The translations under genes were made by a program, and so were the position numbers. The notes below the pieces were generated by a model. The model saw only the letters and a list, made by a program, of their open reading frames with translations. It was not told the origin of the DNA and did not search any database. A stretch of 64,000 nt of DNA from a bacterium (GTDB lineage: Bacteria > Armatimonadota > JACIXR01), in assembly GCA_014360495.1 (NCBI GenBank), contig JACIXR010000003.1:62001-126000 (forward strand), written 5' to 3'. This document shows positions 7,464 through 54,034 of this stretch, one piece after another; position 1 is the stretch's first letter; every line of letters starts with the position of its first letter.

Positions 7464-9344
7464 TTAAAATCTCTGGGAAAATTCAAAGAGAAACCATCTT
7501 CCCGCCTGGGGATAGTATATTATCTCATTCCAATCTTTATCAAATAGATTTGAAATGGAGAGGCTAAAGCTTCTTCCTTTCTCCGATTGCTTTGAGATTT
7601 TCAGATTGAAAATCGTAGCTGAAGGCACACTTTTAGGAACCAAAACCTGCTTTGGCCCTCCCTCCGCTCCATACCACCATTCCAAACCCTCACTATCAGT
7701 TGCCCTCTTACCCCAATAGAATATCTCTACAGTATAGGAAAATCCTCTCTTGCCATTTAAAGTTAAGCCCGCCTTTAAGGTATTCTTGGGCTCGGATGTG
7801 CGATAAGCGGCAATAAGGGGCCGCTCGTGCTCGCAATCCCAAGCATCAAGATAGGTATAATTTGCCCAAAGGGATATATTCCCAAATCGCTTTTCGTAAG
7901 ATAGCTCCAATCCCTGTTCAATTGCCTTGCTGATATTAATATAACGACCATCCTTGTCGTTCCCAATGAGATCCTTTTCTTTGGAATAGAATAGAGTTGC
8001 GGTGAATCTCCCATTTGGCAGATTTCTTTCCCAGTCAACCCCGATGCTATTAGCAACGAAAGGTCTTAGATGGGGATTGCCTATAAAGCAGCCACCACCA
8101 TAAAGCTGCTCCAAAAAGGGGAATAGCTTGTTTCGTCCGAGGGAAATCCGTAAGGTTGTGAGCTCGTCGGGTTTGACATTGTAAGAAATGAAAGGGACCA
8201 GTGCAGTTCCACCTGGACTTGCCTCTTCATGTCCTAGAGAAAACATGATACTTCTTCGCTCTCCTAACCTGGTGGTGCTTTCTACAAAAAGCCCCTTTCT
8301 TTTCATCTTCTGCTTATTCCAAGGTCCAAGGTTCGGTTCCTCAGCGGGAACAGTGGCACGCCTCCAATCTCCTTGCCACCAAGCTCCCAAAGATAAATTA
8401 CCCGAAGAAGTGGTGATATTGTAATTAAGCTCAGAGCGTAGCAATTTATATCTCAAGAATGTTACCATTGGGACAACTTCTTTCCTCTGGAAATCCCACT
8501 GCTTGTAATATAGATTAGAGCTGAATAAAACGGGAGCGATGCGAAAACGAAGAGCCGAATTTTCCTTTAGCCTTCGCTCGTAGGTGAGTGAGAGCGCGGG
8601 TCGGCGGCTCTGAGGCCACCATTGTTCCCATCTATCAGCTAGATTCGGCCCAGTTGGCTTAAAGCCTGCTTGCTCCCCCTGCAACATAGCGCCAGCTATC
8701 GTGAACTTTTCATCCTCTCCACCGTTTACAATTTTGAACGAGAAGTCTGAGAGGTCGGTCTTCATCTTCTCCCTCCACTCATTTCCCACTATCCGATTAA
8801 AGGCTATGAAATAGTTCCTGTTCTCATCCCCTCCACTGGCTGATAATTCGTATATCTGGGTATTGTAAGTGCCAAGGGCATAGGAAACAGAAGCGCCAGG
8901 GTAATCTTTTCCATTCTTTAAAGTTATTAAAACAACACCCGAGAGACTTCCCATAAACCTAGGAGGAAGTGGAGCTTTGAAGACATCAACGCTTTCTATT
9001 GCGGTCCAAGGGACACGGTCTAACACACAGCTTATGATGGGATTCACATTCATTCCCTCAACCAAAACCTGTCGCGAGCCGAAATGGGAGCTTCTTATGG
9101 TGAGACGAGGCGAAACCATAACGCAACCATATATTCCCTCCGTCCCTGGGAGGCGATTTAGAACATCGGCTATGTTTTGTATAGCCACCATTCTTTGCCC
9201 TTCTTCAGCTGATACGGTTTCAACTTTTACCGGCTTCTCCTTCTCAGCTTCAACTTCAACCTTAACCTCAACCGTAGGAAGTTCCTGGGCGAAGCCCAGA
9301 ACAAGAGACAAGATGAACGAGACGAATATTTTTGATTTAACCAC
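7464..9344 (-). CDS. TonB-dependent outer-membrane receptor
   Basis: Outer-membrane energy-coupled transporter of 626 residues. A signal peptide (MVKSKIFVSFILSLVLGFAQ) is followed by a charged linker rich in Glu/Val/Lys, then a plug domain (about residues 45-145) with VADVLNRLPG-like IADVLNRLPGTEGIYG, RSSHFGSRQVLVEGMNV and ESVDVFKAPLPP. The rest is an amphipathic beta-barrel with alternating aromatic residues, ending in a C-terminal Phe (WFLFEFSQRF) as expected for Bam-dependent insertion. It is slightly short for the family. It shows that the cell has an outer membrane. GTG start after AAAGGAGGTTTTGTAA. The substrate may be cobalamin or glycan; no riboswitch was found upstream, so no specific name is given. 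Confidence 0.92.
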   Translation of the reverse strand: MVKSKIFVSFILSLVLGFAQELPTVEVKVEVEAEKEKPVKVETVSAEEGQRMVAIQNIADVLNRLPGTEGIYGCVMVSPRLTIRSSHFGSRQVLVEGMNVNPIISCVLDRVPWTAIESVDVFKAPLPPRFMGSLSGVVLITLKNGKDYPGASVSYALGTYNTQIYELSASGGDENRNYFIAFNRIVGNEWREKMKTDLSDFSFKIVNGGEDEKFTIAGAMLQGEQAGFKPTGPNLADRWEQWWPQSRRPALSLTYERRLKENSALRFRIAPVLFSSNLYYKQWDFQRKEVVPMVTFLRYKLLRSELNYNITTSSGNLSLGAWWQGDWRRATVPAEEPNLGPWNKQKMKRKGLFVESTTRLGERRSIMFSLGHEEASPGGTALVPFISYNVKPDELTTLRISLGRNKLFPFLEQLYGGGCFIGNPHLRPFVANSIGVDWERNLPNGRFTATLFYSKEKDLIGNDKDGRYINISKAIEQGLELSYEKRFGNISLWANYTYLDAWDCEHERPLIAAYRTSEPKNTLKAGLTLNGKRGFSYTVEIFYWGKRATDSEGLEWWYGAEGGPKQVLVPKSVPSATIFNLKISKQSEKGRSFSLSISNLFDKDWNEIIYYPQAGRWFLFEFSQRF

Positions 9345-9485: not shown

Positions 9486-12400
9486 TTAAAATCCCCTTCT
9501 GTTCGCGAATGCTAAGTGCAAATTCTCGCCTCTCCAATCCTCAACTGAAATCACAATATTCCCCTTAGGAAGCTCAAAGCTTATCTCTTTCCCCTCTCTA
9601 GGGAGCAGGAAAAAATAATTATCGGAAAAGATTGGTTGAACGTCAATACCCTCCGCTTTTATCCTGAGGAAAAAAGAAATGCTATCTGAAAGGTTTGAAA
9701 CGGTTATAATACCCCTTTGACCTTCCTTTCTTCCCGAAACTTTCAAATTTACAGGAGGAAGGTTGTCCAATCCAATCGCCTCTTCCTCTAAGTTTTCCAC
9801 CTCCCCTTCCCTATTAGCGAGATATCCTAAAAGCCTTGCGAGAAAAAGAGGGTACTTATCCCATCCCCTTACAGCCACAGCCCAACCACCCCTTAATCCA
9901 GAGGTATAGGCAAGGCATCTTCCCTTGCCATATGTCCTTTCCGCTAAAAGAGGTGAGCCGTTAGAGAGGGAAAGCAAGATATTTGCCCCTTCCCTTACCT
10001 CCTCCTCATTATAGCCACCTATCTTTATGCGAGAGAAGGATAAGCCACGCAGAATGGGATGGTCGGATGATTTAACGACAATCCCCAAATCCCTACGCTC
10101 TCTAAGTGAATTCTCTTTCATCACAAATGGAGAAATCTCCTCTATTATTGTTCCCTTTAAACCTCCCTCTCCATAGGCGTTCCAACCGCCGTCCAATAAA
10201 ATCCCTTTTCCCGAGCTCACTAAATCCGCTATTCGCTCCATCGCTTCTTTTGACAACTTCTTGCCAATTCCTTCGCTTTCTCCGATGATGAAGCAATCGT
10301 ATCCCTCCAAATCTGGAAGGGAATCAGCGGTAGCTATTTCCAACTTCACTCCGAAGGACATAAGCAATTCCCCTATCTCCTTCCATCCCTCCGCTTCCTG
10401 TCCAAATGTGGAGAGGATTACCAAGGCTTTTAAAGGCTTTGTAAATCCTCTCACTCTCCTAACGGGAATGGGATAAATCTTCTCAGAAATTATTTTCCCC
10501 TCTTTCTTAACTCTCGCTATAAGAAATACTACCCCTTCTCTATAATCTTGGGGAATCTGAAAATTCAGGCTCCAAAGCCTTAGGGATTGTTGGGCAGGTA
10601 AGGGAATATTTTGAGATAGTCGCTTGAGAACTTTTCTCGGAGAAGCTATGGTGAACTCAGCTTGACAATTTTCCCTCTTTGTCGTTAGATTTATCGCATA
10701 GACGCCGATATTTAGCGATTCCCCTACCCTCAATGTCGTCTTATCGTAATCAATTGCAAGATTTATCGGCGAGCTCGCTTTTTTGAACCAATATAAAGAA
10801 GGCTTCGGATTTCCATACCAATCAACCATACTCCAAGAGATATTAGGCCAAGGGTCGTTGAACTGCCAAATCAAACATCCTGAATTCCTCCAGATGTTTT
10901 TCAAGCAGGAATCCAAATTGAACTGATAGGTTATCGCTTGGGCGAGCTGGGCTTTTTTAACGAAATTGTTTAAATCAGAGGTTCTTCCGTATTGCTTTGC
11001 ATACATCTCTATCTTCCTCGCATCAGCGAGATGATAGCTCCATTCCTCAGAGGGAGGGAAAATACCAGAAGTGGAAAGGAATCTGAGCAGGTCCTCCTCA
11101 GGGGGAGGTGATTGGAGTCCCGCCTCGCTGCGGAAGACCGTGAATTGGCGATAGTTTGTATAGGGAGCTGAGCCATGCCATACGCTCCAATCGTGGACAT
11201 CTCCTCCATAGGGAGAGGCGCGATGGAATGGACGAGTCCCGTCCAGCGCTTTACAGAGCCTCTCCAATCCATCAACCAATTCCCTATTGCTTTGGTTGTC
11301 GGGATTAAATTCATTACCTCCACACCATAAGACCAAACTCGGATGATTTCTCAAGCGGATTATGGAATCTCTTGCATTTTCAAGGAAGGCATCCCTTGGC
11401 AAATTGGGATAATCGGCGCAGGCAAGGGGGAATTCCTGCCATAGCATTATCCCATATCTATCGCATAGCTCATATAATATATCCTCCTCCATAATCCCTC
11501 CACCCCAGATTCTGAACATATTTATACCTGCAAAGCTCGCTAGCTTTACTAATCTTTCGTATCTCCGAGGGGATAAATCATAAAGGGAATCGGCTGGCAC
11601 CCAATTGGCACCCTTGCAATAGATTCTTACGCAATTCACTTTCACAATCCAAGGATAAAGCTCGTTTGTATTGGGATTTTTCTCCCATTCCAATTGCCTT
11701 GCTCCCCAAATAAATGAAAGGCTTGAAGAAACTTTCTTCCCCAGAACGAGGAAAAGCGAGACTTTGTAAAGATTTTGCGGTCCAAAACCAGCAGGATACC
11801 ATAATTTGACATCTGGGATGGCGAATTCAAAATTTAAAATTCCCTCTCCCTTTCCAACCTCAACCTCCTTCCTTAACTTATAACTTTTACCCCTGAAATT
11901 CACCCCTTCCAATTTTATGTAAATTTCCGCTTTTCCCTTGGTTGCGGAATCATATCCCATTATTAAATTAACGATGGCTTTATTTCCATTCAATTTGATC
12001 AACTTCAGGAAGGGATTTTTTAAGAGGACCTCTCCACTCTCCATAATCTCAACGGGACGCCAAACTCCGATGGGGATGATTCGGGGAGCGAAATCCCAGC
12101 CATAGGACATCTGACAGGCTATCGCTTTCGTTCTCTCCTTCTCAGGCAAGATTCTTATCCTCAATTTATTCGCACCATCTCTCAATAACCCCGTTATCTC
12201 CCAAATCGGCTGGACAAACATCCCCTCTATTTTGCCGATGAGCTCCTCGTTGAGATATACCTCTCCTCTTGGAGCCACCCCTCCAATCTTCAAGAAATAT
12301 CTTCTGCCCTTCTCTTTTTTGAAGGAGAAACTCTTCTCGTAAATCCAATTATGAACCTCCACCCATTGTGATTCCTCGTTCCTTGTTGAGAAATAAGGGT

Positions 12401-12587
12401 CGGGAATCAATTTTGCCTTTAAAAGAGCCATCTTCACAGTTGAGGGAACATCTGAGGCAGTCTTCGCGCTTCCGTCCTCGGAATAAATCACCCATCCCTT
12501 ATTCAAACTTTGAGGAAAAACCGCTACAGCAAGGAAAAGTTGAAGGCAAAACCATGTTTTTAAATCAATCCCTCTTAAATCTCTCAA
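9486..12587 (-). CDS. Secreted GH2 beta-mannosidase-like enzyme with C-terminal amidotransferase-like domain
   Basis: Protein of 1033 residues. Signal peptide around residues 10-26; N-terminal jelly roll (about 30-185), Ig-like domain (about 190-295), TIM barrel (about 305-600). The acid/base Glu is E426 in WCGGNEF and the nucleophile is probably E488 in VFRSEAGLQS. The FRIWGGGIMEEDILYELCD and LWQEFPLACADYP segments are characteristic of GH2 beta-mannosidases. Residues about 720-930 form an added Rossmann/ThuA-like glutamine-amidotransferase fold, possibly carbohydrate-interacting. TTG start, with GGGAGG upstream in the spacer after the URO-D gene. Last gene of an operon with URO-D, DUF6785 and GxGYxYP proteins. 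It should release beta-linked mannose or a similar sugar outside the cytoplasm. Confidence 0.87.
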   Translation of the reverse strand: MRDLRGIDLKTWFCLQLFLAVAVFPQSLNKGWVIYSEDGSAKTASDVPSTVKMALLKAKLIPDPYFSTRNEESQWVEVHNWIYEKSFSFKKEKGRRYFLKIGGVAPRGEVYLNEELIGKIEGMFVQPIWEITGLLRDGANKLRIRILPEKERTKAIACQMSYGWDFAPRIIPIGVWRPVEIMESGEVLLKNPFLKLIKLNGNKAIVNLIMGYDSATKGKAEIYIKLEGVNFRGKSYKLRKEVEVGKGEGILNFEFAIPDVKLWYPAGFGPQNLYKVSLFLVLGKKVSSSLSFIWGARQLEWEKNPNTNELYPWIVKVNCVRIYCKGANWVPADSLYDLSPRRYERLVKLASFAGINMFRIWGGGIMEEDILYELCDRYGIMLWQEFPLACADYPNLPRDAFLENARDSIIRLRNHPSLVLWCGGNEFNPDNQSNRELVDGLERLCKALDGTRPFHRASPYGGDVHDWSVWHGSAPYTNYRQFTVFRSEAGLQSPPPEEDLLRFLSTSGIFPPSEEWSYHLADARKIEMYAKQYGRTSDLNNFVKKAQLAQAITYQFNLDSCLKNIWRNSGCLIWQFNDPWPNISWSMVDWYGNPKPSLYWFKKASSPINLAIDYDKTTLRVGESLNIGVYAINLTTKRENCQAEFTIASPRKVLKRLSQNIPLPAQQSLRLWSLNFQIPQDYREGVVFLIARVKKEGKIISEKIYPIPVRRVRGFTKPLKALVILSTFGQEAEGWKEIGELLMSFGVKLEIATADSLPDLEGYDCFIIGESEGIGKKLSKEAMERIADLVSSGKGILLDGGWNAYGEGGLKGTIIEEISPFVMKENSLRERRDLGIVVKSSDHPILRGLSFSRIKIGGYNEEEVREGANILLSLSNGSPLLAERTYGKGRCLAYTSGLRGGWAVAVRGWDKYPLFLARLLGYLANREGEVENLEEEAIGLDNLPPVNLKVSGRKEGQRGIITVSNLSDSISFFLRIKAEGIDVQPIFSDNYFFLLPREGKEISFELPKGNIVISVEDWRGENLHLAFANRRGF

Positions 12588-12605: not shown

Positions 12606-13676
12606 TTACCCTTTATAATCCATTACCTCCTCAAGGGTTTGACAGATAGCCTCAATGTTTTCCAAAGGGACATCGGGCTCGCATTCCGCCTCCAACATCA
12701 ATCCTCCCTCCGGCATATAAAGAGCCTCAACTGCAGTCCAGATATGTTCTCTAATCTCGTCCGGCGTGGCGAAAGGGAAGAGCTGGCGGTCCAAATCCAA
12801 ATTTATACACACCCTTCCCTTACAGGTCTTCACCAATCCCTCCAGCGTATTAGCTCTGATTTGAGGGTTTATTATGTTCATTCCCGCCTCAATCAAATCG
12901 TCCATAATCTCAAGGATGTGCCCATCGCTGTGAAGATATACATAAGCTCCCGCCTCCCTCACCCTCCCGAACATCTTCTTGAAACAGGGAGTGAAATATT
13001 TTCTGAAATGGCGTGGGCTTATCGGAAGGCTCTTCTGGGCTCCCAAATCATCGCCGAAGCTGATGATATCCGCTCCTATCTCCAGCCACTTCTCAATGAG
13101 GCGCATATTGTGCTCCAAAACCATATCAATTAGCTTTTGCAGGCGTGGGTCCTCGGTGGCTATATCTATCATAAAGTTCTCAAAACCTCTGAGATAATAA
13201 ATCCTCATATACATCGCACCATGAGGAAGCCCGCCCCAAGCCAAATTCCCCGCCGCTTTAATCCTCTCAAAACGCATCTTCATCTCCTCCCAATCTGGAG
13301 CTGGACCTCTATCCCATTGGACAAGTGGGTCTGGGACTTTATAGTTCTCAAGGGCGCTCCAATCTTCAAGTGGATGCCCAACGACGATTCCCTCCATCCC
13401 CTCCTCAATATTCTCCCAGACGCATCCCCAAGAATCGGTAAACCTCCCCTTGCGATAGCCTGGGTCGTGAACAGCGTCAAAATCTATTCTTCCCTTCTTG
13501 AAATTTGGGAAGAGGCGGGGATGCCTAAGGACTATTTCCTCAAGCGCCTCCCTATATTTTCTCCAGGTAGCTGGGAGGATTCCCACGGAACAAGGTATCC
13601 AGTCAGGGTAGCGGAAATCTACGACCTTTAAGAAATTCTCTGCTTCCTTCGTCCAATTTCTCGGTTCCATCGCCAT
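12606..13676 (-). CDS. Uroporphyrinogen decarboxylase (URO-D) family protein
   Basis: URO-D superfamily TIM barrel of 356 residues. Supporting segments are DPLVQWDRGPAPDW, SFGDDLGAQKSLPISPRHFRKYFTP, YVYLHSDGHI and a C-terminal MLEAECEPDVPLENIEAI. The decarboxylase/methyltransferase active-site layout is present, but the zinc motif His-x-Cys of methylcobamide methyltransferases reads His-Ser-Asp here, so it is not simply a Zn-dependent MtaA/MtbA. No haem-synthesis genes are near. It sits between a DUF6785 membrane protein (34 bases) and the GH2 enzyme (18 bases), so a glycan-linked role is likely. Start ATG 13676 follows AAAGGAGAG. The reaction is unknown. Confidence 0.88.
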   Translation of the reverse strand: MAMEPRNWTKEAENFLKVVDFRYPDWIPCSVGILPATWRKYREALEEIVLRHPRLFPNFKKGRIDFDAVHDPGYRKGRFTDSWGCVWENIEEGMEGIVVGHPLEDWSALENYKVPDPLVQWDRGPAPDWEEMKMRFERIKAAGNLAWGGLPHGAMYMRIYYLRGFENFMIDIATEDPRLQKLIDMVLEHNMRLIEKWLEIGADIISFGDDLGAQKSLPISPRHFRKYFTPCFKKMFGRVREAGAYVYLHSDGHILEIMDDLIEAGMNIINPQIRANTLEGLVKTCKGRVCINLDLDRQLFPFATPDEIREHIWTAVEALYMPEGGLMLEAECEPDVPLENIEAICQTLEEVMDYKG

Positions 13677-13710
13677 AGCTGATCACTCTCCTTTACATTT
13701 TGATAGATTT

Positions 13711-15558
13711 TTAAATGAAAAACCTATAGACTTCGTTTTTTGATATTATACCCCAAAATATCCATAACGCTCCAATTGAAAATTCCCCTACTATAAGACC
13801 GAGAAAAAACGGTAGATATGTTTTATAGATTTTCAAACCACCTAATTTCAAGAGAAAAATTTTAATTAACCAACTTAAGAACATGGAGAACCATAAGTGA
13901 GACATCGTCCAGGAACCTGCAACAGCGTAGCCAACTGGATGGAAGGGATTAAATGGCCAAACTTTCTTCATACCGAAGAGAAAGCTAACAAACAGAAAAC
14001 CATAAGAATAATGTCTTATTGAAAGAAAATCTGGACTTTGAGGCTGAGTTAACCATCTATCAAGCCTATTAAAGGCTTCCGCGGCTAAATGAATTCCGTA
14101 ATAATTGGTAAGCTTATTTACCAACCCCCATGTATTAAATATATACAAGAACACGAAAAATGAAGAAACAAAACCAATCGCGCAGGCGTAAAGTATAGGA
14201 TAGGCTAAATTAAAATTTTTCATCCCTTTTTCCTGGCTCGCTATTTTCAATCCTTCCAATTGATGTCCGATAGGGTGGCTTCTATAATCTCTTGTTATCC
14301 AATAATAGAGAGTGAACATTACAAGATTACTATTTCCGAGCATTTTTGTCCCCAGAAAGGAAGTAAGAATCCAATCGGGTCCAGCAAAGTATAAATCATG
14401 GGTGGGCGGACCGAGCTCCGCTCGCATCCTTGCTATTGACACACAAATAAGAAAATAAATAATAAAAAACAACACACTGACCCAGACAGACATACCTGCT
14501 AAACCACTGAATATACAGAGGCTTAAAAAACCAAACAAAAATCCCCACAAATATTTTCTTCCAGGTCCCTTATAAACTTGCTTCACGTATTTTCTTGCCC
14601 CCCATAAAGCTATTACTCCTATGCCTATCCATGCACCTGATGATTGAGCACTTTGGTAAGGGCCAGGCATAGGTGGAATCCCAACAAGACTACGGACCAC
14701 CATTTGAAATTTCCAAAAGAGATAGAAAAACCAGCAAGAAAAAGCAAGGTCAGTGGGGATAAAATAGCTCAACCCAACCGCAAAAGGGTAGAAACACAAA
14801 GGGGTCCAACCTATTGCATTCCACGGTGGACTTAAATTGACAATATAAGGACTAAGGTCCCACCTTGTTTGTAAATCCGGCAGGTAAGGAAAGAGAAAGT
14901 GTAAGCCGTGCCAAATATCTAATACACCAGCGAAAGCACATCCCAACCAAAATAATTTGCTTTTAAGCAATTGACTTTTCTCATCAGTAATCTCTAAAGG
15001 AATTTGTGCAACTGGAAATGCCAAACGCTCTTGTGAAATCCATCCATCCTTGTATAAACAATTAAGACAGTAAAAGCTCCAGAAAAGAAGCAATGTAAAA
15101 ATTCCCCAATTAGCCATGGGAAGCAAAAATATTTTTAGGTTTTCGAAGATTGAAACGCCGCCATTATATAGACCATACAAAGCTTCCCTATCCGAGACTA
15201 TTAACCAAGCAGGCAGATACTGAAAAAATTTTTCCTCCCATTGATTTTGTTCATTAGCGAACCAATGAGCGTGCCCCAATGAAGTCATAAGTATCTGCAT
15301 CATATCATGCCCACATAAGGAGGTTGCCATACAAAGCATAATATAAAGCGTGAGAATTTCCGCGCGGGTTAAAAAATTCTTGTTGAACCTTTTTAGTATG
15401 GCATTTATAAACATCAGCAAGAAGAGGGTGATTATGGCATTATAAAATAGAACAATGGCAGTGGAATGAAGGGGGTAATAAAATACCTCGCCCATTGCAA
15501 CAAAGTAGCAATTGAGGGGGATTAACATAAGAGATAGGGCGAATACTCTTAACCTCAT
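13711..15558 (-). CDS. Polytopic membrane protein, DUF6785/DUF6784 family
   Basis: Integral membrane protein of 615 residues with roughly 12-14 hydrophobic helices (for example around residues 7-25, 33-53, 63-85, 145-165, 225-250, 330-385, 450-475 and 585-605). The conserved-looking loops RMRAELGPPTHDLYFAGPDW and GYAVAGSWTMSHLWFSMFLSW match a family that is expanded in Armatimonadota-type genomes. No ATP-binding or transporter signature is seen; it could be a transporter or a membrane scaffold. It begins 3 bases after the GxGYxYP gene stop, implying tight translational coupling. Family name is from memory of the fold pattern, so moderate certainty. Confidence 0.75.
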   Translation of the reverse strand: MRLRVFALSLMLIPLNCYFVAMGEVFYYPLHSTAIVLFYNAIITLFLLMFINAILKRFNKNFLTRAEILTLYIMLCMATSLCGHDMMQILMTSLGHAHWFANEQNQWEEKFFQYLPAWLIVSDREALYGLYNGGVSIFENLKIFLLPMANWGIFTLLLFWSFYCLNCLYKDGWISQERLAFPVAQIPLEITDEKSQLLKSKLFWLGCAFAGVLDIWHGLHFLFPYLPDLQTRWDLSPYIVNLSPPWNAIGWTPLCFYPFAVGLSYFIPTDLAFSCWFFYLFWKFQMVVRSLVGIPPMPGPYQSAQSSGAWIGIGVIALWGARKYVKQVYKGPGRKYLWGFLFGFLSLCIFSGLAGMSVWVSVLFFIIYFLICVSIARMRAELGPPTHDLYFAGPDWILTSFLGTKMLGNSNLVMFTLYYWITRDYRSHPIGHQLEGLKIASQEKGMKNFNLAYPILYACAIGFVSSFFVFLYIFNTWGLVNKLTNYYGIHLAAEAFNRLDRWLTQPQSPDFLSIRHYSYGFLFVSFLFGMKKVWPFNPFHPVGYAVAGSWTMSHLWFSMFLSWLIKIFLLKLGGLKIYKTYLPFFLGLIVGEFSIGALWIFWGIISKNEVYRFFI

Positions 15559-15561
15559 TTT

Positions 15562-18390
15562 TTATTTTCTTAACAATCTAATTTGGGCTATCAGCTCACC
15601 ATTTAGGGGGTACCATTCTCCATTATCACCTTGATAAAAGGAATGTCCACGATTTATTGAGGAATCACCAGCGGTATATAATCTTGCAAAAGGGTTTCCT
15701 GTATAACAGATTTCATTTATTCCCTTTCTTAAAATTGAAGGTTCTACTCTTACCCTTGCCCATTCCCAAGGGAGGCTACCTTTTAATCTACAAGTGTATT
15801 CCTTACCATTGATCAAGATTTTTACAATTTGTCCATTTTTCCCCTTTACTAATACCCCTACCTCCGCTTTACCGAATTTTTCAAGCTCTTTTATAGATGA
15901 CAAATCAAGGACTTTTTTAACCCAAGGCGTACCATAAGGATCTGTATACCACCCGCTAATGTCAACATTCCCATTATCCTCGCGTATCACGCATCCCTCC
16001 TCAAGCCACTTGTTATATAAACTCGTTAACATATCTGGGCGAACTATTATAAAGTCTTCACCTAATTCTTTAGTTATCTCTTTAATCTCGCGTGGGCCGA
16101 TGCTGAAGCCATTAACAGATGAAACCAAAAAAGCAGGACACTCTTTAGGGATAGAATTTTTAATCTTACTTGCGTAGCTTTTAGGGTTTTTGAAAGCTTC
16201 ACCTGGCCAACCTTCCCATGGGTGTGTTATTGGCCAATAAACAAAATATCTCTTCCCTCTATTAAGGTATGAAACCCTAGATGTTTCCCCTGAAGTAGGA
16301 GGGGTCCATTCAGCATATATTGCTGAAGGCTCCAGGACCTCCGCTGCTTCCTGAATTCTGCCACTTCCTTGCAAAATCCAAAATTGGTCATGGGATAAAA
16401 GCCTCATATATTTCTTAGAAAGAAGCAAAAATTCCTTATAAATTTCTCTCGGATTCTGGTAATTTTGTCCGTAAAAGTCAGCCCAAACATAACCTATACC
16501 GTCGGCACTGAGGAAATAATCATTCACTGTAGCGGTGGCATAAAAATGCTCAATTGCAAGAGGAGTTAGCTCCACTTGGGTAGGGCAAAACGGCCACCCC
16601 ATTGGTATCTCTCCTCTCTCCTTTTGGTTCCATTTGCTCTTAATCACGCCAGATAGATTCATTCCAAAGTTATCGCAGTCAGAGAGGAGAAAAGAAAGGT
16701 ATACTTTGGGTTCAACTTCCTTCACTTTCAAAGGCTGTTGTCGCAAATGCTGTGGCATCTTAACACCACTATGAACGCTAAGATTAGGGCAAAGGGCAGT
16801 GGCTACAGTAACTTTTCCATATTTTGAGGAAAACATTACTCCTGTGGACTCACCGATGCCCGAACCCGCTCCATCGTCCCACCACCCCAAAATGGGTATA
16901 TGGAGAGGAGTAGAAACTAACAGCTTTTTCAAAAAAGATATATCCTCGGGAGGAAACCAGCAATTGGCTTCACCTTCTATCCAAAAAGTAAAAGCTTTGA
17001 ATTCTATTAAATAATCGCGAGGGAAAATCCAAGCAGGATGCATCATAGCTAAAATTGAGTGGTTTAACTCACGCCACAAAGATTGATATGCCCATTCATA
17101 AGCTTCAATGCGATTTTTGAATCTATTCCTTAAATCCTCAGTTATAGGAAACGTATTCAAACGGGAAGCAATACGAGGAGACGCTATCACTGCTTCCTTC
17201 ACTGCGGAAATCATTGTTGCGATATTTATCGTATCTGGAAACTCGGGGTCATATACCACAAGACCTTTAATCTCTTTCTGAAATTTTCTAAGCAATTCCC
17301 ACACATTGTTTACTAAAAGTATTTCATGCCCTTTCTTCCTCAAAAGCTCAAGCCATTCCCAATCAAAATTACTTGATAAAAGATAGATTCTCGGTCTTTT
17401 ACGATTGACAATCCCTTGTAAAGAAACTGCGAGCAATCTTTCGCTCTGCGAGAGAGCCCCAATATCTAAAACATATAGATTCTTCTCAAGGGGTTTTGAG
17501 CGCGGAAGCCATGAATTACATGTTTTTGGCTGTTTATTAATCTTTGCATATGTTGGAAATTTTTCCTCAGCTTTCTTAACATAAGTCTTATAAACTTCAT
17601 TATTAATAACTCTCTTTTCTCTCAGTACATAGGCTGTGCTTTTGACAACGAGCTGGTAAATATAATCTTCCGGCAACAAAGATAATAAATTGACACCAAG
17701 CCACACATCAATCGCGCCTCTGAAACCATCGCAATTGTGTTTTATGACAGCAAAAGGATAACCTTTTATATTTCCCTCTTTTTTAACCCCTACGATTCCT
17801 ATTAACTCATCTTCAGGGTTATTCGGCACAGGATATTGAACTACGGATATACTGGGAATGTTTTCCCAGTTATAATTTCCAAAACCAATAACATCGCACT
17901 TTCTAAAATATGTGAATTCCTCTGGATGAATCACTTGTTCAACTCCAGCTGTTCCAATTTTGGCATCACTATAGAAGTCTGAACCCATTGAAGAAGTGAC
18001 ATCTATCCATTTGCTTCCTTCGAGTTGGCAAGGATGTGTAAAAGGAGCCCCACCAATGAATATGAAGCTCCCTCCTTGACTATGAAATAGACGAAGATTT
18101 TCCCAGGCTTTAAGCGGGAAAGTATTGCCGTAGACATAAATTAGGGCTGAAAATAGGTTAATATTAAATTCTTTTTCATCACATAATTGTTCTACATTGA
18201 CAAATTCTGCATCTATGCCACATTTCTTTAAAGCGTCACAAACAAGTTCTGCCCGGACACTTACAGGCGAAATGTAGTAAGGGAAACTTTTCTCTCTAAA
18301 TATCGCTACTTTAGAAGTTATGGCTGTACAATACATTTGAGGTAGGAACACAAGTGCTATAATTGAAAATTTCACTAAACTTTTAGCCAA
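15562..18390 (-). CDS. Secreted GxGYxYP-family protein with N-terminal ThuA-like domain
   Basis: Protein of 942 residues. Signal peptide at residues 8-25. Residues about 28-270 form an alpha/beta domain of the ThuA or beta-galactosidase trimerisation type (VAIFREKSFPYYISP, SFIFIGGAPFTHP). Residues about 300-790 form the GxGYxYP putative glycoside hydrolase module: NLYVLDIGALSQSERLLAVS, GLVVYDPEFPDTINIATMIS, YLSFLLSDCDNFGMNL and the degenerate signature GIGYVWADFYGQ in place of GxGYxYP. The C-terminal region (about 810-940) is a beta-sandwich with a VGVLVKGKNGQIVKILING core. TTG start after AGGAGGATTGGAAA. First gene of the operon with DUF6785, URO-D and GH2. Enzymatic activity is unproven. 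Confidence 0.82.
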   Translation of the reverse strand: MAKSLVKFSIIALVFLPQMYCTAITSKVAIFREKSFPYYISPVSVRAELVCDALKKCGIDAEFVNVEQLCDEKEFNINLFSALIYVYGNTFPLKAWENLRLFHSQGGSFIFIGGAPFTHPCQLEGSKWIDVTSSMGSDFYSDAKIGTAGVEQVIHPEEFTYFRKCDVIGFGNYNWENIPSISVVQYPVPNNPEDELIGIVGVKKEGNIKGYPFAVIKHNCDGFRGAIDVWLGVNLLSLLPEDYIYQLVVKSTAYVLREKRVINNEVYKTYVKKAEEKFPTYAKINKQPKTCNSWLPRSKPLEKNLYVLDIGALSQSERLLAVSLQGIVNRKRPRIYLLSSNFDWEWLELLRKKGHEILLVNNVWELLRKFQKEIKGLVVYDPEFPDTINIATMISAVKEAVIASPRIASRLNTFPITEDLRNRFKNRIEAYEWAYQSLWRELNHSILAMMHPAWIFPRDYLIEFKAFTFWIEGEANCWFPPEDISFLKKLLVSTPLHIPILGWWDDGAGSGIGESTGVMFSSKYGKVTVATALCPNLSVHSGVKMPQHLRQQPLKVKEVEPKVYLSFLLSDCDNFGMNLSGVIKSKWNQKERGEIPMGWPFCPTQVELTPLAIEHFYATATVNDYFLSADGIGYVWADFYGQNYQNPREIYKEFLLLSKKYMRLLSHDQFWILQGSGRIQEAAEVLEPSAIYAEWTPPTSGETSRVSYLNRGKRYFVYWPITHPWEGWPGEAFKNPKSYASKIKNSIPKECPAFLVSSVNGFSIGPREIKEITKELGEDFIIVRPDMLTSLYNKWLEEGCVIREDNGNVDISGWYTDPYGTPWVKKVLDLSSIKELEKFGKAEVGVLVKGKNGQIVKILINGKEYTCRLKGSLPWEWARVRVEPSILRKGINEICYTGNPFARLYTAGDSSINRGHSFYQGDNGEWYPLNGELIAQIRLLRK

Positions 18391-18504: not shown

Positions 18505-19323
18505 TTACTCCCACATACTCATACGAATTGTTCCACCGAAATTGTAATCTTTACACTTACTCCAATGATACCATTTTGCATGTCCATCCATAAAAATTAT
18601 CACTTGACCACCACTATGTCTGGTTTTTGCTTCGGCAACATCTTGGAAGTAAAATCCTCGGGCACAGCAATGGGGTTCAAGATCCCAGTTTGCTGTTGCC
18701 ACTCTTCTAAGTATTCCTTGAAGCGGATGCCCCGAGCAGCACAGTCCTGTTCCAAATACTTGTGTTCCCATACTTTCACCAATGAGGAATGTCTCAGCAG
18801 GATGTCCGTAGCGCGCAAGGCTCGCACGTCCCTGATAATCATTGGCTATAAGCTCATCATACCCGAAGCTGATCCGACTTAGCGGTTCTCCTAAATTCTG
18901 CCACGCTCTTTGTCCACAGGATGTGGTGTCATTAACAACTCCACCACACCCTTGGTGAACAGCCCAGCCGGTATGGGAAGGGCAAGTAAACACCTGTCCG
19001 TTCTTGACATAAGGGTAAATTCTTTCCCACCAGGGCTTGTTGTCTGGGCGATTATTTCCTCCTGTCATTGAACTTCCGGGAGCATAAGCTGGACCTGTCC
19101 AGCAAGGCGTCCACCATACTGGAAAGTGTTCGTCCCAATCCTGAACATACATCATAATAGCCGTTCCAATCTGCTTGGCGTTTGAAAGGCAAGCAGCTTT
19201 ACGAGCATTATCCCTTGCTCGGCTGAAAACCGGGAAGAGAATGGCAGCCAGAATGGCGATGATAGCTATGACGACCAACAACTCAATCAATGTAAAACCG
19301 CTCTTTTGTCTTTTCATTAACAT
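18505..19323 (-). CDS. DUF1559 family pseudopilin-like protein (second copy)
   Basis: Second H-X9-DG pseudopilin, 272 residues. The class III leader MLMKRQKSG precedes [18 protein letters not shown], with a continued helix [19 protein letters not shown]. Near the C-terminus [13 protein letters not shown] gives the His-x9-Asp-Gly signature. The middle contains several Cys residues and Trp-rich segments ([11 protein letters not shown]). Start ATG 19323 is chosen because AAAGGAGGCG lies 8 bases upstream; a TTG at 19371 would add an unlikely charged extension. It precedes a GxGYxYP/DUF6785/URO-D/GH2 operon, separated by a hairpin. By analogy with pilin-like fibres it may bind polymer outside the cell; function is not shown. 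Confidence 0.88.
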
Positions 19324-19360
19324 TTTTAAATCGCCTCCTTTTGTTTTTAAAATTTTGTAT

Positions 19361-19413
19361 TTTGCCCCCAATCTTTATTTTCCGATCTTTCCGGCGGGGA
19401 AGAAGGGGGCAAA
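19361..19413 (-). promoter_or_regulatory. Long-range stem-loop in the pseudopilin leader
   Basis: A perfect 9-bp inverted repeat TTTGCCCCC / GGGGGCAAA encloses 35 bases that contain a smaller CCG/CGG hairpin. The 5' arm lies inside the short leader ORF (19375-19443) and the 3' arm follows its stop, just before the pseudopilin Shine-Dalgarno. This is the geometry of translation-coupled attenuation. No T-run follows. Confidence 0.5.
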
Positions 19414-20007: not shown

Positions 20008-22974
20008 CTAACCATCTTGTTCCTTTTTGCTTATTACTTGGAATATATCTATACAATCTATAGCTATTGGTATTTTACCTTCCCAGAAAACCCTTGTCTC
20101 AATCGGCCCGCCTGGATGCTCGAAGCATAAAGCGAAACATTTGAACTCTCCAATTGGAAGCTCATTGGACCAAATGTCTTGGGAGCTTGTCACAGGTTTG
20201 CCACCTCCTACACAGGTATCAATAGACACTACTCTCCCTTCCCCCTCGCTGAGTCTTTTTAACCTAAAAAGAGCGATATACAGTCCTTTTTCTAAAGGCA
20301 TATAAGGTCCATATACAATATGAGTATTAACTGTATCACCACTTCTAACTTCCCAGACCTTTCCGCCACTTGCCAACGGGTCTTCCTGCATTTTTCCCGC
20401 TGGGTGGAGTAAATCCTCAGCTTCTAAATGTTTGATGAATTTCATAATGATATCGGGTTGTAATTCCAACGGATTTACTATCTCCTTAGATTCGGTCAGC
20501 TTGAGGTTGATTTTTACGATTTTTTTGAAAGTTTTCGTACCGAAGATAATTTTTCCCTCTGTTCTTATCGGCACTCCATAAACCATAATATCTGCTGATT
20601 GCGATGGTAAAAGGTTGAACTTTGCAATGCTAATTTTTATATTTTTGAACCCCTCAACTTTTATTATTCCGTTTAGTCTTTCATCACATACGTTTTGAAT
20701 GCTAAAAGCGAAAACCATAGGCTGCCCCTGGATACCAACCAAAATGGAGGGAACCCTTATAAAAAGTTTTTCCATCTCCGCATACTTTTTATAGAGCTGG
20801 CCAAGATGGTCAGGACGCACAACGACATAATCGTCCCCGAGCAATTGGACAATCTCGTCTAGCATAGAGATATCAAAAAACCAGTTGCAAATGAAAACAT
20901 TTAGAAAAGCAGGTCGCTGAGAAGGGGTGATAGAGCGCACTTGGGAAACAATATTTGCTATCTGCTGTTCCCTTGAGAGGTTTTCTTTCCAGTTAGTTGC
21001 TGCGTGGAAGACGGGCACATTCTTTGAGGTTATATAAGTTATGTCAGAATAATCGTACAACTTTTTGCCGTAATCCGGGAAAATCGCGCTTAAATGGTGA
21101 ATATGTTCCGCATATCTATTTATCAATCTGAGCTCATTAGCTATCGCGAGCCATATAGTTCTTATACCCATTCGCTCCATAAGTTTTGCCGTAAGGTCAA
21201 GATACTCGTTGAAAACTTTGTCTCTCTCTTTATATCGCGCACCATAGTTGTCGGGCACACCTACACCCAATCCACAAGCAGCAACAAAAGAATCCATTGG
21301 GGTGGCGGTAGAGAAATAATAATCAACAATAGAGGGGATAAGCATAGGCGCGGCTAGATCAATTGTCCATCCAATTGGGAACTTGCCCCTTCTCTTATCC
21401 TGCCAAAGTTGCGGAAAATTGCTCACGCTTAGAACTGGGAGATTATCACCATCAGATATGATAAAGGATATATAAACTTTGCTCGTGTCCAATGCGGGTG
21501 GAGGAGGTGAAGGAGGTGGCGAAAGGTTTTCAATTTGGATACCGCTGTGCACTGTTAAATTTGTGCATTCTATTGAACCAATGCCAAACTTGGCAAATTC
21601 TGAGAAAAAAGCGAATCCTTTAACATCCCCCCACCCTACACCAGGAAATCCTGCCAAGGGTGTTCCGATGCCTGCCCAAGGAGCTCCTAATATCGGAACA
21701 TTTGGAGGCGCTTTACTTAAAAGTTCCTCCACGAAATGAACTTCCTCCGAAAGATTGGAATAGGGTTCTGCACCATCTATTTGCCCTGGGAGCCAAAATG
21801 TAAATATTTTATTCGCAACAAGATAATCCCTTAACCAGTAATTATCGGGATATAAACAAGCAAGGACCTTATGATTCATCTTTTCCCATAGATTATCAAA
21901 AGCCCAGCGGTAAGCTTCAAAGCTCCTTTTCCAGCGTCCTCTTAAATCCTCGACCACGGGAAGACCTAACTCCTTGGCTAGGCGTGGTGAAACGACGATT
22001 GCAGTTTTCAAACTAGCGAGCATAGTGGCAATGTTCTTCGTTGCTGGTAAGCGAGGGTCATAGATGATAACCCCTTTTATTTTATGTCTAAATTTATCCA
22101 ATAGTTGGCTTATTTCCTTAATTTCTTCTACTCGCTTAACGAAGCCCCTTTTTTCCATCCATTCAAGCCAAAATTCATCGGTCGGCAAAAGAAGGAGATA
22201 AATTTGAGGTTCTTCCCTATTTATTATTCCTTGCAGTGTAATCGTTGCCAATCGCAAATCACTTGGTGCTTTTGTCAGGTCGTATACATAAAGAACTTCA
22301 TTGGGAGAAGAAGAACGTGGGAAAAGAAAGCGCAAAGGATGTTTTGGGAGAGGGGAAATTAGGTTACCAGGTTCGCCTGAGGGAACAGGTTGGGGTGGGA
22401 ACTTTCTGACAAAATCTTCAGCATTTCCGCCCTCAACTTTATATAATTCTATCTCATCAATTCTCAGGGAGGCTGTGCCCAACCAACCTACTCTTAGTTC
22501 AATCTTTCCTTCCTGATAGCGAAAGGGTAAGAAAACCCAGGTATAGCGATTAATTATTAGGTCTGAGGAGTAAATAGTTTTGATATTGAGTAACGATTTT
22601 GTCAGGTTGTTATAAACATATATACTTACAACCTCATCGTCTACATCTTGCAACAATTTGAGACGAAAGAAAGCAACAAAATCTCCGCTTTGGAGTTCAA
22701 TGTAAGGGCCGTAAATGACGATACCAGGCTGGCAATTTAGAGAATTTACTTCCCAAGCTTTACCCTTCTTAGCTTCAGGGTCCTCTACCAAGCTACCACC
22801 TTGATGAAGTAAATCCTTCTCTACATTCCAAACTTTTACTAGCTGATATTCCCCTTTGGGGAGATTACTAGAGGACGATAAAGGGGATAAGTGGCCAGTA
22901 TCCCGCCCATTCTCTGCAAGAGCAAAGCTTAACAGAATTATAGCTATACCCAAAAACACTCTTTTTAAAAACAC
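20008..22974 (-). CDS. Secreted GxGYxYP-family protein flanked by duplicated carbohydrate-binding-like domains
   Basis: About 988 residues. Signal peptide MFLKRVFLGIAIILLSFALA. Residues about 35-185 and about 840-980 are related beta-sandwich domains: both carry DLLH-x-x-G, EDP-x-A-x-x-GK-x-WEV, VYGPY and A-x-FRLK in order. Between them is a GxGYxYP-type core (NEVLYVYDLTKAPSDLRLAT, GVIIYDPRLPATKNIATML, YISFIISDGDNLPVLS) with the signature degenerate as CGLGVGVPDNYG. The Asp-rich SDGDN motif could bind a ligand or metal. GTG 22974 is preferred because GGAGGCGAG lies upstream; the ATG at 22992 overlaps that Shine-Dalgarno and has none of its own. It lies 47 bases downstream of the GH38 gene, probably co-transcribed. 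Confidence 0.82.
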   Translation of the reverse strand: MFLKRVFLGIAIILLSFALAENGRDTGHLSPLSSSSNLPKGEYQLVKVWNVEKDLLHQGGSLVEDPEAKKGKAWEVNSLNCQPGIVIYGPYIELQSGDFVAFFRLKLLQDVDDEVVSIYVYNNLTKSLLNIKTIYSSDLIINRYTWVFLPFRYQEGKIELRVGWLGTASLRIDEIELYKVEGGNAEDFVRKFPPQPVPSGEPGNLISPLPKHPLRFLFPRSSSPNEVLYVYDLTKAPSDLRLATITLQGIINREEPQIYLLLLPTDEFWLEWMEKRGFVKRVEEIKEISQLLDKFRHKIKGVIIYDPRLPATKNIATMLASLKTAIVVSPRLAKELGLPVVEDLRGRWKRSFEAYRWAFDNLWEKMNHKVLACLYPDNYWLRDYLVANKIFTFWLPGQIDGAEPYSNLSEEVHFVEELLSKAPPNVPILGAPWAGIGTPLAGFPGVGWGDVKGFAFFSEFAKFGIGSIECTNLTVHSGIQIENLSPPPSPPPPALDTSKVYISFIISDGDNLPVLSVSNFPQLWQDKRRGKFPIGWTIDLAAPMLIPSIVDYYFSTATPMDSFVAACGLGVGVPDNYGARYKERDKVFNEYLDLTAKLMERMGIRTIWLAIANELRLINRYAEHIHHLSAIFPDYGKKLYDYSDITYITSKNVPVFHAATNWKENLSREQQIANIVSQVRSITPSQRPAFLNVFICNWFFDISMLDEIVQLLGDDYVVVRPDHLGQLYKKYAEMEKLFIRVPSILVGIQGQPMVFAFSIQNVCDERLNGIIKVEGFKNIKISIAKFNLLPSQSADIMVYGVPIRTEGKIIFGTKTFKKIVKINLKLTESKEIVNPLELQPDIIMKFIKHLEAEDLLHPAGKMQEDPLASGGKVWEVRSGDTVNTHIVYGPYMPLEKGLYIALFRLKRLSEGEGRVVSIDTCVGGGKPVTSSQDIWSNELPIGEFKCFALCFEHPGGPIETRVFWEGKIPIAIDCIDIFQVISKKEQDG

Positions 22975-23021
22975 TTTAAAACTCGCCTCCATTTATGCCA
23001 CGCTGTTGAAAAGTCAAGACG

Positions 23022-25928
23022 TTATTGTAATTTGAAGGTCTTGATTTCAAAGGGATGGACATCAAATAGGAGGGTGTTGTCGGATATTTCAACTTCATCC
23101 GTCGGTCTTTCCAATAGGTCGCATTCTACAGCCTCTTTTATATCACTTGTTATTTTGATTTGGGCTCTCGTCCAGCGTCCCAAGGGCTCGTAGCATCGGA
23201 TTATCAAAGAATCGTCATCCTCCGCTTTCTTAACCGCTCCTATTATCACTCCCTCAGCAGACATGAAGGAGCACTGGCTGGGCAAATCTCCCTTGTGTAT
23301 GCTTTCTATCTTGGCAATCAAGGGAACATTGAGGTCATAAGCCCATTCAATCGTTGAATCCAAGCCAGCTTTATGGGGATGGAGGGCATAGGTGAACCAA
23401 TGTTCACCTTGGTCGGCTTCCGGATCGGGTGCCGTGGGAGCCCTCAACAGGCTTAGACGCATCACATTATCCCTTATATCGTATCCATATTTGCAATCGT
23501 TCATAAGGCTTACGCCGTAAGAGCTGTCTGATAGGTCAGCCCACTTATGCCCGCTTACCTCAAACCTCGCCTGCTCCCAGCTGGTGTTCCTGTGGGTAGG
23601 TCGCTGGAGGTTGCCGTAGGCGATATTGTAAGTCGCATAGCGAGCCCTCACATTAACGGGAAATGCCACTTTCAAGAGTTTATGCTTTTCGCGCCAATCA
23701 ACATAAGTGACGAAATCAATGCGTGGGATATCTCTGTAAATGGTCAAATCCTGAACCATTCGTGAGTTTCCGAACTGCCACTCCAAGCGGAGAACACCGC
23801 GCAAGGGTCCTCTCTCCACAACCTGCTTTTTGACCTTGCCTAACTTCCAAGACTTGACCTCGTAGTCCTTCTCCACCTCCCACGCATCGCCGAGGTCGTG
23901 GAAAAGCAAGAGCTCGTTGCCCGGCGCGGAGAGCACCTCCCTATCATTCACCTTATCGTAAAGCCTCGTTATCCTCCCCTCATCGTCTACATCCAAGCTG
24001 AACAAATCGTTCTCAAGGTGGTCTTCCCTAACTGTCAACCCACCTTCTTCCGGCTCTCCCTCAATTACTTGATAAACCCTATATCCCATTGGAGGGACAT
24101 CGGCTGTAAATAGAAGCTTTTCCCCGAGACGCTGGCAATCTGCGTTCACCTTAACTCCCCTGGGAAGCTCAATCTCTACCAGGGATTTCCTCGGGAAGGA
24201 AAGACTATTGAATACAATGACCGCCTCTTTCCCATCGCCTTCAGTGTTTATCCTTTCTCCCAAAATCCTCAAGGCATTCCCCTTTATCTCCTCACCTATG
24301 CTGAAAATTTCCTTATAATCCCTTTCGCTATCCACATATACCTCTCCGATGGAGCTTCCGGGCAGGATGTCGTGAAACTGGTTGAGGAGGACGAGCTTCC
24401 AAGCCCTATCAAATTTCTCCTTTGGATAGGAACCGGAAAAGAAGGAGAGGAATTCCGCATCTCGAAGAAGGAACTCAGCCTTCCTGTTCCATCGCTTGTT
24501 TCTCGCCTGCGTCGTGAGGGTTCCCCTGTGTCTTTCAAGATAGAGCTCATCATCCCAAACGGGAAGGTTTTCCTTTCCCTTAATGGATTCAAAGAATTCC
24601 TTTGCCGTTGAGAACTTCAAGGAGGGAAGAGCAGGAAGCTTGGAAAAGCGTTTTCCCTTCTCTATCTGCTCCCTTGTTGGTCCTCCGCCTCCATCTCCAT
24701 ATCCATACAAATAGGCGATTTCGGGCGCCGGTCCCGTTTCCTGAAGCCTTTGCCAAGCCTCCCTTAACTCCCTCACATTTATGTCCTGATTTAAGGCTCT
24801 TGGGAAGAAAGTTTCAATTGTAGTTCCGTCTATTCCCCTCCAAAGGAAATGTGTGTAGGGAAAGCGATTAGTATCATTCCATCCTATTTTTATCGTCATA
24901 AAGTAGTCCATGCCCGCCTTTTTCAGTATTTGGGGAAGTGCAGCGGAGAAGCCGAAGACATCGGGAAGCCATTCTATCTTCGTCTCAATCCCGAACTCCT
25001 CCATAAAGAAGCGCTTACCGTAAAGAAGCTGACGAACAAAAGATTCCCCTGAGGGGATGTTGCAATCGGGTTCAAGCCACATCCCTCCCACGAGCTCCCA
25101 TCTCCCTTCCTTAACCATCTCCTTTATCTTCTCGTAGACATCGGGATAATGGAGCTTGACGAATTCATAGGCTTGTGGCTCGCTTTGAGCATAGCGAAAT
25201 TCGGGAAATTCCCTCAAGAGATTGATTATCGTTGAGAAGGTGCGACCACATTTGCGAACGGTTTCCTTCAATGGCCAGAGCCAGGCAATATCAATGTGAG
25301 ATTGCCCTAAAAGGTGGATTTCCCCAGGGGGCTTAGGTAGGTCAACGCCTTCCCAGAGAACCTCCCTGGCTTTCTTATAATCGTCTTCTTTAATTGACCT
25401 CTCCATCGCTGATAGGAGAGTTCCCCTTATCAGGGGGTCTGTTTCGTTCTCCACAATCTCCAAAAAGGATATGAGGTCAAAATAATAATCGTAAACTTCC
25501 CTGTTTATCCCAACAAGGAAGGACCGCTGAAGGGTTAAGGGACCAGCGGAGCGGAAGGAATGGGCGGGAGGACAAAAAGCTTCAATTTCTATCTCCACTT
25601 CATTTAGTTTAGGCAGAGGAACGATTCTTCTGTTGTTATCCAATCCCTGATAAGAATCACCGTTTATCCTAACCAGTGCCTCCCCACCCAAAACGAGCTC
25701 TAACGCGAGATTATCCCTATCGGGGAGCTCTATAGAAGTTGTAAGAAAAACGGTCTCATTGGGATTTCCCCAAATATCCCCCATATTTATCGTTTTCTCC
25801 CCCAAGAACTTATATTTTCCCGGCGCTTCATAATAGGCTACTTTCGCTTTCCATGGCTCAATCCTCTTTATGATTGTAAATGGTTCAAGCTGTCTTATTC
25901 TCTCTCTTATTGTCTCCAGTCTTATCAT
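23022..25928 (-). CDS. Cytoplasmic GH38 alpha-mannosidase
   Basis: Retaining alpha-mannosidase of 968 residues without signal peptide. The zinc site starts with GQSHIDIAWLWP (H211, D213), and the nucleophile is D323 in WLPDVFGFS. Other family blocks are VGGMWLEPDCNIPSGESFVRQLLYGKRFF, LYGYGDGGGGPT and LVLLNQFHDILPGSSIGEVY. The C-terminal GH38C beta domains (about 560-968) end with LLFDVHPFEIKTFKL. The order and length match bacterial and class II alpha-mannosidases that work on imported oligosaccharides in the cytoplasm. ATG after GAAAGGAGGAAAGCGAAT. Divergent from the secreted enzyme genes at 26065 and 30845, forming a paired inside/outside mannosidase arrangement. Confidence 0.94.
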   Translation of the reverse strand: MIRLETIRERIRQLEPFTIIKRIEPWKAKVAYYEAPGKYKFLGEKTINMGDIWGNPNETVFLTTSIELPDRDNLALELVLGGEALVRINGDSYQGLDNNRRIVPLPKLNEVEIEIEAFCPPAHSFRSAGPLTLQRSFLVGINREVYDYYFDLISFLEIVENETDPLIRGTLLSAMERSIKEDDYKKAREVLWEGVDLPKPPGEIHLLGQSHIDIAWLWPLKETVRKCGRTFSTIINLLREFPEFRYAQSEPQAYEFVKLHYPDVYEKIKEMVKEGRWELVGGMWLEPDCNIPSGESFVRQLLYGKRFFMEEFGIETKIEWLPDVFGFSAALPQILKKAGMDYFMTIKIGWNDTNRFPYTHFLWRGIDGTTIETFFPRALNQDINVRELREAWQRLQETGPAPEIAYLYGYGDGGGGPTREQIEKGKRFSKLPALPSLKFSTAKEFFESIKGKENLPVWDDELYLERHRGTLTTQARNKRWNRKAEFLLRDAEFLSFFSGSYPKEKFDRAWKLVLLNQFHDILPGSSIGEVYVDSERDYKEIFSIGEEIKGNALRILGERINTEGDGKEAVIVFNSLSFPRKSLVEIELPRGVKVNADCQRLGEKLLFTADVPPMGYRVYQVIEGEPEEGGLTVREDHLENDLFSLDVDDEGRITRLYDKVNDREVLSAPGNELLLFHDLGDAWEVEKDYEVKSWKLGKVKKQVVERGPLRGVLRLEWQFGNSRMVQDLTIYRDIPRIDFVTYVDWREKHKLLKVAFPVNVRARYATYNIAYGNLQRPTHRNTSWEQARFEVSGHKWADLSDSSYGVSLMNDCKYGYDIRDNVMRLSLLRAPTAPDPEADQGEHWFTYALHPHKAGLDSTIEWAYDLNVPLIAKIESIHKGDLPSQCSFMSAEGVIIGAVKKAEDDDSLIIRCYEPLGRWTRAQIKITSDIKEAVECDLLERPTDEVEISDNTLLFDVHPFEIKTFKLQ

Positions 25929-30756: not shown

Positions 30757-30780
30757 AAATAAACAAAAAGATAAAAATTA

Positions 30781-30809
30781 TTGACCATCTTTGTGGACTT
30801 TTTTATATT
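30781..30809 (+). promoter_or_regulatory. Promoter of the secreted alpha-mannosidase gene
   Basis: TTGACC (30781-30786), 17-base spacer, TATATT (30804-30809). It lies between the giant GH2-like gene and the GH38 gene and shows the latter has its own promoter. Confidence 0.7.
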
Positions 30810-30844
30810 CAATTAATAAAGCGAGAAGGAGGCTGGTAGAAAAT

Positions 30845-52817: not shown

Positions 52818-52818
52818 T

Positions 52819-54033: not shown

Positions 54034-54034
54034 T

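Follow-up and report, generated by a model that had tools for sequence, protein, structure and literature searches.

A candidate mannoside-utilisation operon with a predicted OPT-fold membrane protein in an Armatimonadota genome

The window analysed here is a stretch of 64,000 nucleotides from an Armatimonadota genome of 2.55 Mb (GenBank assembly GCA_014360495.1, contig JACIXR010000003.1, positions 62,001 to 126,000), and its order is known from three genomes, all of the same genus. We describe a run of minus-strand genes in which a GxGYxYP protein, a membrane protein of families DUF6785 and DUF6784, a URO-D-fold enzyme and a glycoside hydrolase family 2 (GH2) enzyme follow one another. The Pfam matches of all four exceed the curated cut-offs. 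An earlier note on this DNA had described these genes, their order, their strand and their spacing of 3-34 bases, including the coupling of the GxGYxYP and DUF6785 genes by 3 bases, and all of this is confirmed. The range it gave, 12606-18390, encloses three of the genes and leaves outside it the GH2 gene and the pilin-like gene that opens the run. The genes of the run and its neighbours are as follows:

18505-19371, minus: pilin-like protein with N_methyl and DUF1559/SBP_bac_10 (Pfam); opens the gene run
15562-18390, minus: GxGYxYP putative glycoside hydrolase, with four GxGYxYP Pfam domains
13711-15558, minus: DUF6785 and DUF6784 membrane protein, predicted OPT-fold transporter (Pfam and structure model)
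12606-13676, minus: URO-D-fold enzyme (PF01208, residues 160-350)
9486-12587, minus: GH2 beta-mannosidase-like enzyme (Pfam; PDB match 5n6u)
7464-9344, minus: TonB-dependent receptor (Pfam TonB_dep_Rec and Plug), membership of the run uncertain
20008-22992, minus: second GxGYxYP protein (Pfam), upstream of the pilin-like gene
23022-25928, minus: GH38 alpha-mannosidase (Pfam), upstream neighbour of the run

From the pilin-like gene to the TonB receptor gene, the successive spacers measure 114, 3, 34, 18 and 141 bases. The best promoter-like match of the minus strand (19513-19486), a match to the consensus only, lies upstream of the pilin-like gene. No SusD-like gene was seen at the locus, and no regulator was identified within the run.

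The new element of the locus is the assignment of the DUF6785 protein as a predicted transporter with the fold of the OPT family (oligopeptide transporter/Yellow Stripe-like, PF03169). Its structure model is confident (pLDDT 91) and matches over its full length barley Yellow Stripe 1 (PDB 7wst), an OPT transporter (TM 0.68/0.69, E 7.6e-7), at 13% identity. The model has no other significant structure match in the PDB, where the next match has an E of 0.26, and PDB sequence searches with the protein gave no match. PF03169, the OPT profile, matches three DUF6785 proteins of related genomes near or just above its cut-off, one of them scoring 25.7 bits in a direct scan against a cut-off of 25.8. 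The resemblance of the modelled fold to OPT is strong, and common ancestry is suggested but not proven. The literature searched contained no paper naming the DUF6785 or DUF6784 Pfam family, and placement in the OPT fold gives DUF6785 a testable function.

In Armatimonadota a single genome holds many DUF6785 genes, and the family is also common in Poribacteria. In the window genome 18 copies are intact; a further one, beside a pilin-like gene (L052:8168-8839 and adjoining; G000:C5:71.7-72.8 kb), is interrupted by stop codons. Ten of the 18 are in runs with varied glycosidase genes on the same strand. In the window, too, the neighbours are glycosidases and not chelate or peptide genes, a difference from the OPT family. 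The partners in the ten runs include GH39 (three copies, two loci), GH29 with a GH42-like gene, GH116-like, GH20 and GxGYxYP, and two further copies besides that in the window have GH2 or GH2-like partners. The genome has two strong GH39 genes, and each has DUF6785 next to it. Pilin-like genes with N_methyl/DUF1559 also recur beside DUF6785 (L038, L043, L050, L039, L052 and window 18505-19371), and are the commonest partner among those checked.

The GxGYxYP and GH2 parts of the locus are ordinary. The GxGYxYP protein is related to the solved BT2193 (3sgg, E 2.9e-17), shares its four GxGYxYP domains, and conserves E514, D571, D573 and N574, the Glu, Asp, Asp and Asn proposed to be catalytic in BT2193. 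It differs from that protein by an additional N-terminal region of ∼300 residues, and the motif that names the family reads GIGYVWA; by eye, a signal peptide is likely. GxGYxYP genes with GH2, GH38 and GH92 genes were published for other bacteria in 2014 (PMC4071793), a context similar to that of the window, where GH2 and mannosidase genes also lie near GxGYxYP. The description of the GH2 enzyme as beta-mannosidase-like is upheld as a prediction from its GH2 domains, their order, and the glutamates retained at both catalytic positions (E426 and E488), with the beta-mannosidase 5n6u as its best PDB match (E 1.5e-96). Unlike 5n6u, it has an added C-terminal GATase1-like region (PF07090 at 775-923); it too has a likely signal peptide, judged by eye.

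The URO-D protein, in which no signal peptide was seen, is modelled in the UroD fold (pLDDT 95) with MtaA (4ay8) as its best PDB match. With MtaA (4ay7/4ay8) and CdmB (9rui) it shares this fold and sequence similarity in the C-terminal half; it differs from them in lacking both the His-Cys-Cys site and a neighbouring corrinoid protein. The site reads H249-S-D251 with Ala at the position of the second Cys, and not the His-Cys-Cys of S-methyltransferases, and the His is replaced by Ser in one clade of its relatives. D210, Q214, Q272, D294, D296 and Q298 are invariant or nearly so and differ from the MtaA site. A HemE role was rejected, the profile match being only partial (residues 160-350), and so was an MtaA-type S-methyltransferase, whose His-Cys-Cys zinc site the residues here do not form. 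Cys332 does not qualify as the zinc cysteine of MtaA, since it is displaced by two positions and the 93% identical orthologue has Ile there. In published O-methyltransferases of the UroD superfamily the Cys are replaced by carboxylates or non-ligands (PMC10418091), and CdmB, which has the UroD fold, needs no zinc (PMC13222342); the missing Cys is therefore not evidence against a corrinoid role. The site appears compatible with O-demethylation without showing it, and the pattern would fit an unrelated function as well.

The genome-wide inventory bears on the same question. About 25 URO-D genes stand against two PF02607 proteins in the window genome. One of the two is fused to an MtaA-like URO-D domain with His-Cys-Cys and preceded by MtaB (L275:5998-9132, G000:C7), likely a methanol methyltransferase system; the other is a stand-alone corrinoid protein beside the activase RACo, with no adjoining methyltransferase gene (L274:12917-15431, G000:C2). 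Across 103 genomes, picked for a close URO-D match, URO-D and corrinoid-protein counts showed no correlation (rho -0.006), a coarse test in which URO-D counts are unconfirmed first-look candidates from one protein query and methionine synthases are among the corrinoid proteins counted. In some genomes of the phylum 60-86 URO-D candidates stand beside only one or two corrinoid-type PF02607 proteins. Elsewhere in the window (51372-54835, minus), a URO-D paralogue (52819-54051) lies with almost no spacing between a radical SAM/B12-binding protein (51372-52817) and a DUF72 gene (54035-54835), the former being another kind of B12-linked neighbour.

The four genes had been put forward as a recurrent unit, and conservation of their order in other genomes as the check. 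Genes in GC-rich relatives were called by a simple frame score, so that false genes are possible, and the counts given here are of profile matches only. In one same-genus genome (G001, L087) the order pilin, GxGYxYP, DUF6785, URO-D, a gene of 1199 aa, and GH2 is kept. The other (G002, L088) has GH38, URO-D and GH2 contiguous, with GH38 10 bases from the URO-D gene, and lacks GxGYxYP and DUF6785 there; a TonB receptor also follows GH2, but on the opposite strand. URO-D thus stands beside a mannosidase gene in all three genomes of the genus. Outside it, the neighbourhoods of 18 URO-D orthologues of ∼48-58% identity (L089-L106) never contained DUF6785 or GH2, and GxGYxYP was found in one of them (L096), ∼6.7 kb away. 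Of 29 close relatives of the DUF6785 protein in the phylum, one had GxGYxYP and one URO-D nearby (both in G001), and seven had pilin-like genes. Conversely, two of 29 GxGYxYP relatives had DUF6785 nearby, in G001 and in G252 (L167), the latter being the sole such pair outside the genus, with a 6-base spacer and reversed order. Of 80 DUF6785 loci in other genomes, the majority Poribacteria, none had a GxGYxYP gene within ∼8 kb, a zero that is a lower bound because many of the contigs end near the gene; URO-D was present at two. In another genus, three genomes have a less similar URO-D gene close to GxGYxYP, a release-factor-3 gene standing between the two, and at another locus of the window genome (L038) a second URO-D gene lies 10 bases before a DUF6785 gene. 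On the phylum and cross-phylum neighbourhoods inspected, a recurrent four-gene module is rejected, and the same gene order was not seen in unrelated genomes. The full unit was found in one same-genus genome only; it is a genus-level arrangement, unstable even within the genus, with one distant DUF6785-GxGYxYP pair beyond it.

The reading we prefer for the locus, and to which we give about an even chance, is that of a mannoside-utilisation operon that resembles a polysaccharide utilisation locus and has an OPT-fold importer. That it is a glycan operon, as the earlier note proposed, is supported by the beta-mannosidase-like GH2 gene, the nearby GH38 alpha-mannosidase gene, and the place of URO-D beside a mannosidase gene throughout the genus. 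The exported GxGYxYP protein, a putative glycosidase, and the GH2 enzyme would act outside the cytoplasm, trimming a glycan that contains mannose. The DUF6785 protein, in the inner membrane, would import the trimmed product, which would then be processed in the cytosol by the GH38 alpha-mannosidase and the enzyme of URO-D fold. The observed basis consists of the genes present and their order, the putative catalytic residues that the GxGYxYP and GH2 proteins conserve, the predicted DUF6785 fold, the pairing of DUF6785 with glycosidases and the place of URO-D beside a mannosidase gene; transport by DUF6785, its direction and its substrate are inferred, as are the protein locations, the sequence in which the steps occur, the transcription of the genes as one unit and what the URO-D enzyme catalyses. 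As in polysaccharide utilisation loci, genes for secreted glycosidases, for a predicted transporter and for a TonB receptor are clustered; the locus differs from these loci in the absences of SusD and regulator given above and in the fold of its inner-membrane transporter. Import of saccharides by DUF6785, if confirmed, would give such loci a further type of transporter and widen the known substrates of the OPT fold.

Several observations weigh against this reading. PF03169 matches none of the aligned DUF6785 members, that is, neither the protein of the window nor any of 42 others, and a profile-profile comparison with two OPT proteins was weak (probability 19). The pairing of DUF6785 with glycosidases is a raw count over the DUF6785 loci, in which chance may have a share. 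Neither DUF6785 nor GxGYxYP is found at the corresponding place in G002, and the source consulted on the GxGYxYP family contains no demonstrated activity. Outside the genus DUF6785 has varied neighbours, many with no link to glycans; since they include GH32 with DUF4838, TldD/PmbA peptidases or FG-GAP proteins, its substrates probably vary.

The DUF6785 protein could instead be an OPT-like transporter that carries peptides or metal chelates, its adjacency to glycosidases in the window genome being incidental. The fold match is to an Fe(III)-chelate transporter, in another family of the phylum DUF6785 genes begin 8-9 bases after a TldD/PmbA metallopeptidase gene (L182:6568-9899, L183:3339-6638), an adjacency that would fit peptide transport, and the Poribacteria loci inspected share no common glycan theme. 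Incidental adjacency is harder to reconcile with the ten of 18 copies that lie with glycosidases of several unrelated families, the two strong GH39 genes among them, and we consider this alternative rather unlikely. For the URO-D enzyme, a corrinoid-independent role is a possibility that we place somewhat below even. As one member of a UroD-fold family expanded in this lineage, it might for example be a lyase, isomerase or decarboxylase whose substrate is a sugar acid or keto-sugar. Such a role is consistent with URO-D copy numbers unrelated to those of corrinoid proteins, with the conserved residues that set the site apart from MtaA, and with the several paralogues or orthologues that adjoin SIS, GFO/IDH/MocA, aldo-keto reductase, GH3 or sulfatase genes. 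Other orthologues adjoin housekeeping genes such as GcpE, and it also counts against this role that we know of no UroD-fold member with such an activity besides HemE.

The earlier note had itself suggested demethylation or a corrinoid-linked step. Here the URO-D enzyme would be a methyltransferase-I-type O-demethylase of O-methylated sugars, passing the methyl group to the single stand-alone corrinoid protein of the genome, which RACo would reactivate. The UroD fold closest to MtaA, a His-Ser-Asp site without the second Cys as in O-type members (PMC10418091), the zinc-free CdmB (PMC13222342), and the presence in the genome of the corrinoid protein with RACo and of the MtaB and MtaA-corrinoid genes all speak for it. 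Opposed to it are a neighbourhood that contains neither a corrinoid protein nor an activase, the excess of URO-D genes over PF02607 proteins with counts uncorrelated among genomes, and the Ser in place of the site His in a clade of relatives. O-demethylation is on balance unlikely; it would supplement the mannoside-operon reading, not replace it. Nothing specific was found in support of decarboxylation or of a methylated mannan, both also suggested earlier. A combined account, in which DUF6785 is a widespread, highly duplicated OPT-fold branch serving as glycan-locus importer in some Armatimonadota, its copies paired with different glycosidases, and in which a URO-D O-demethylase shares one corrinoid protein in trans and processes an imported methylated mannoside, seems to us quite improbable as a whole. 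The large expansion of URO-D genes without matching corrinoid proteins raises a separate question, which can be approached at this locus in the context of mannosidases.

Divergent from the GH38 gene, the plus strand of the window (26065-34405) encodes a GH2 protein of 1563 aa with CBM4_9, followed by a protein of 1204 aa in which a GH2 sugar-binding domain is fused to a GH38 alpha-mannosidase.

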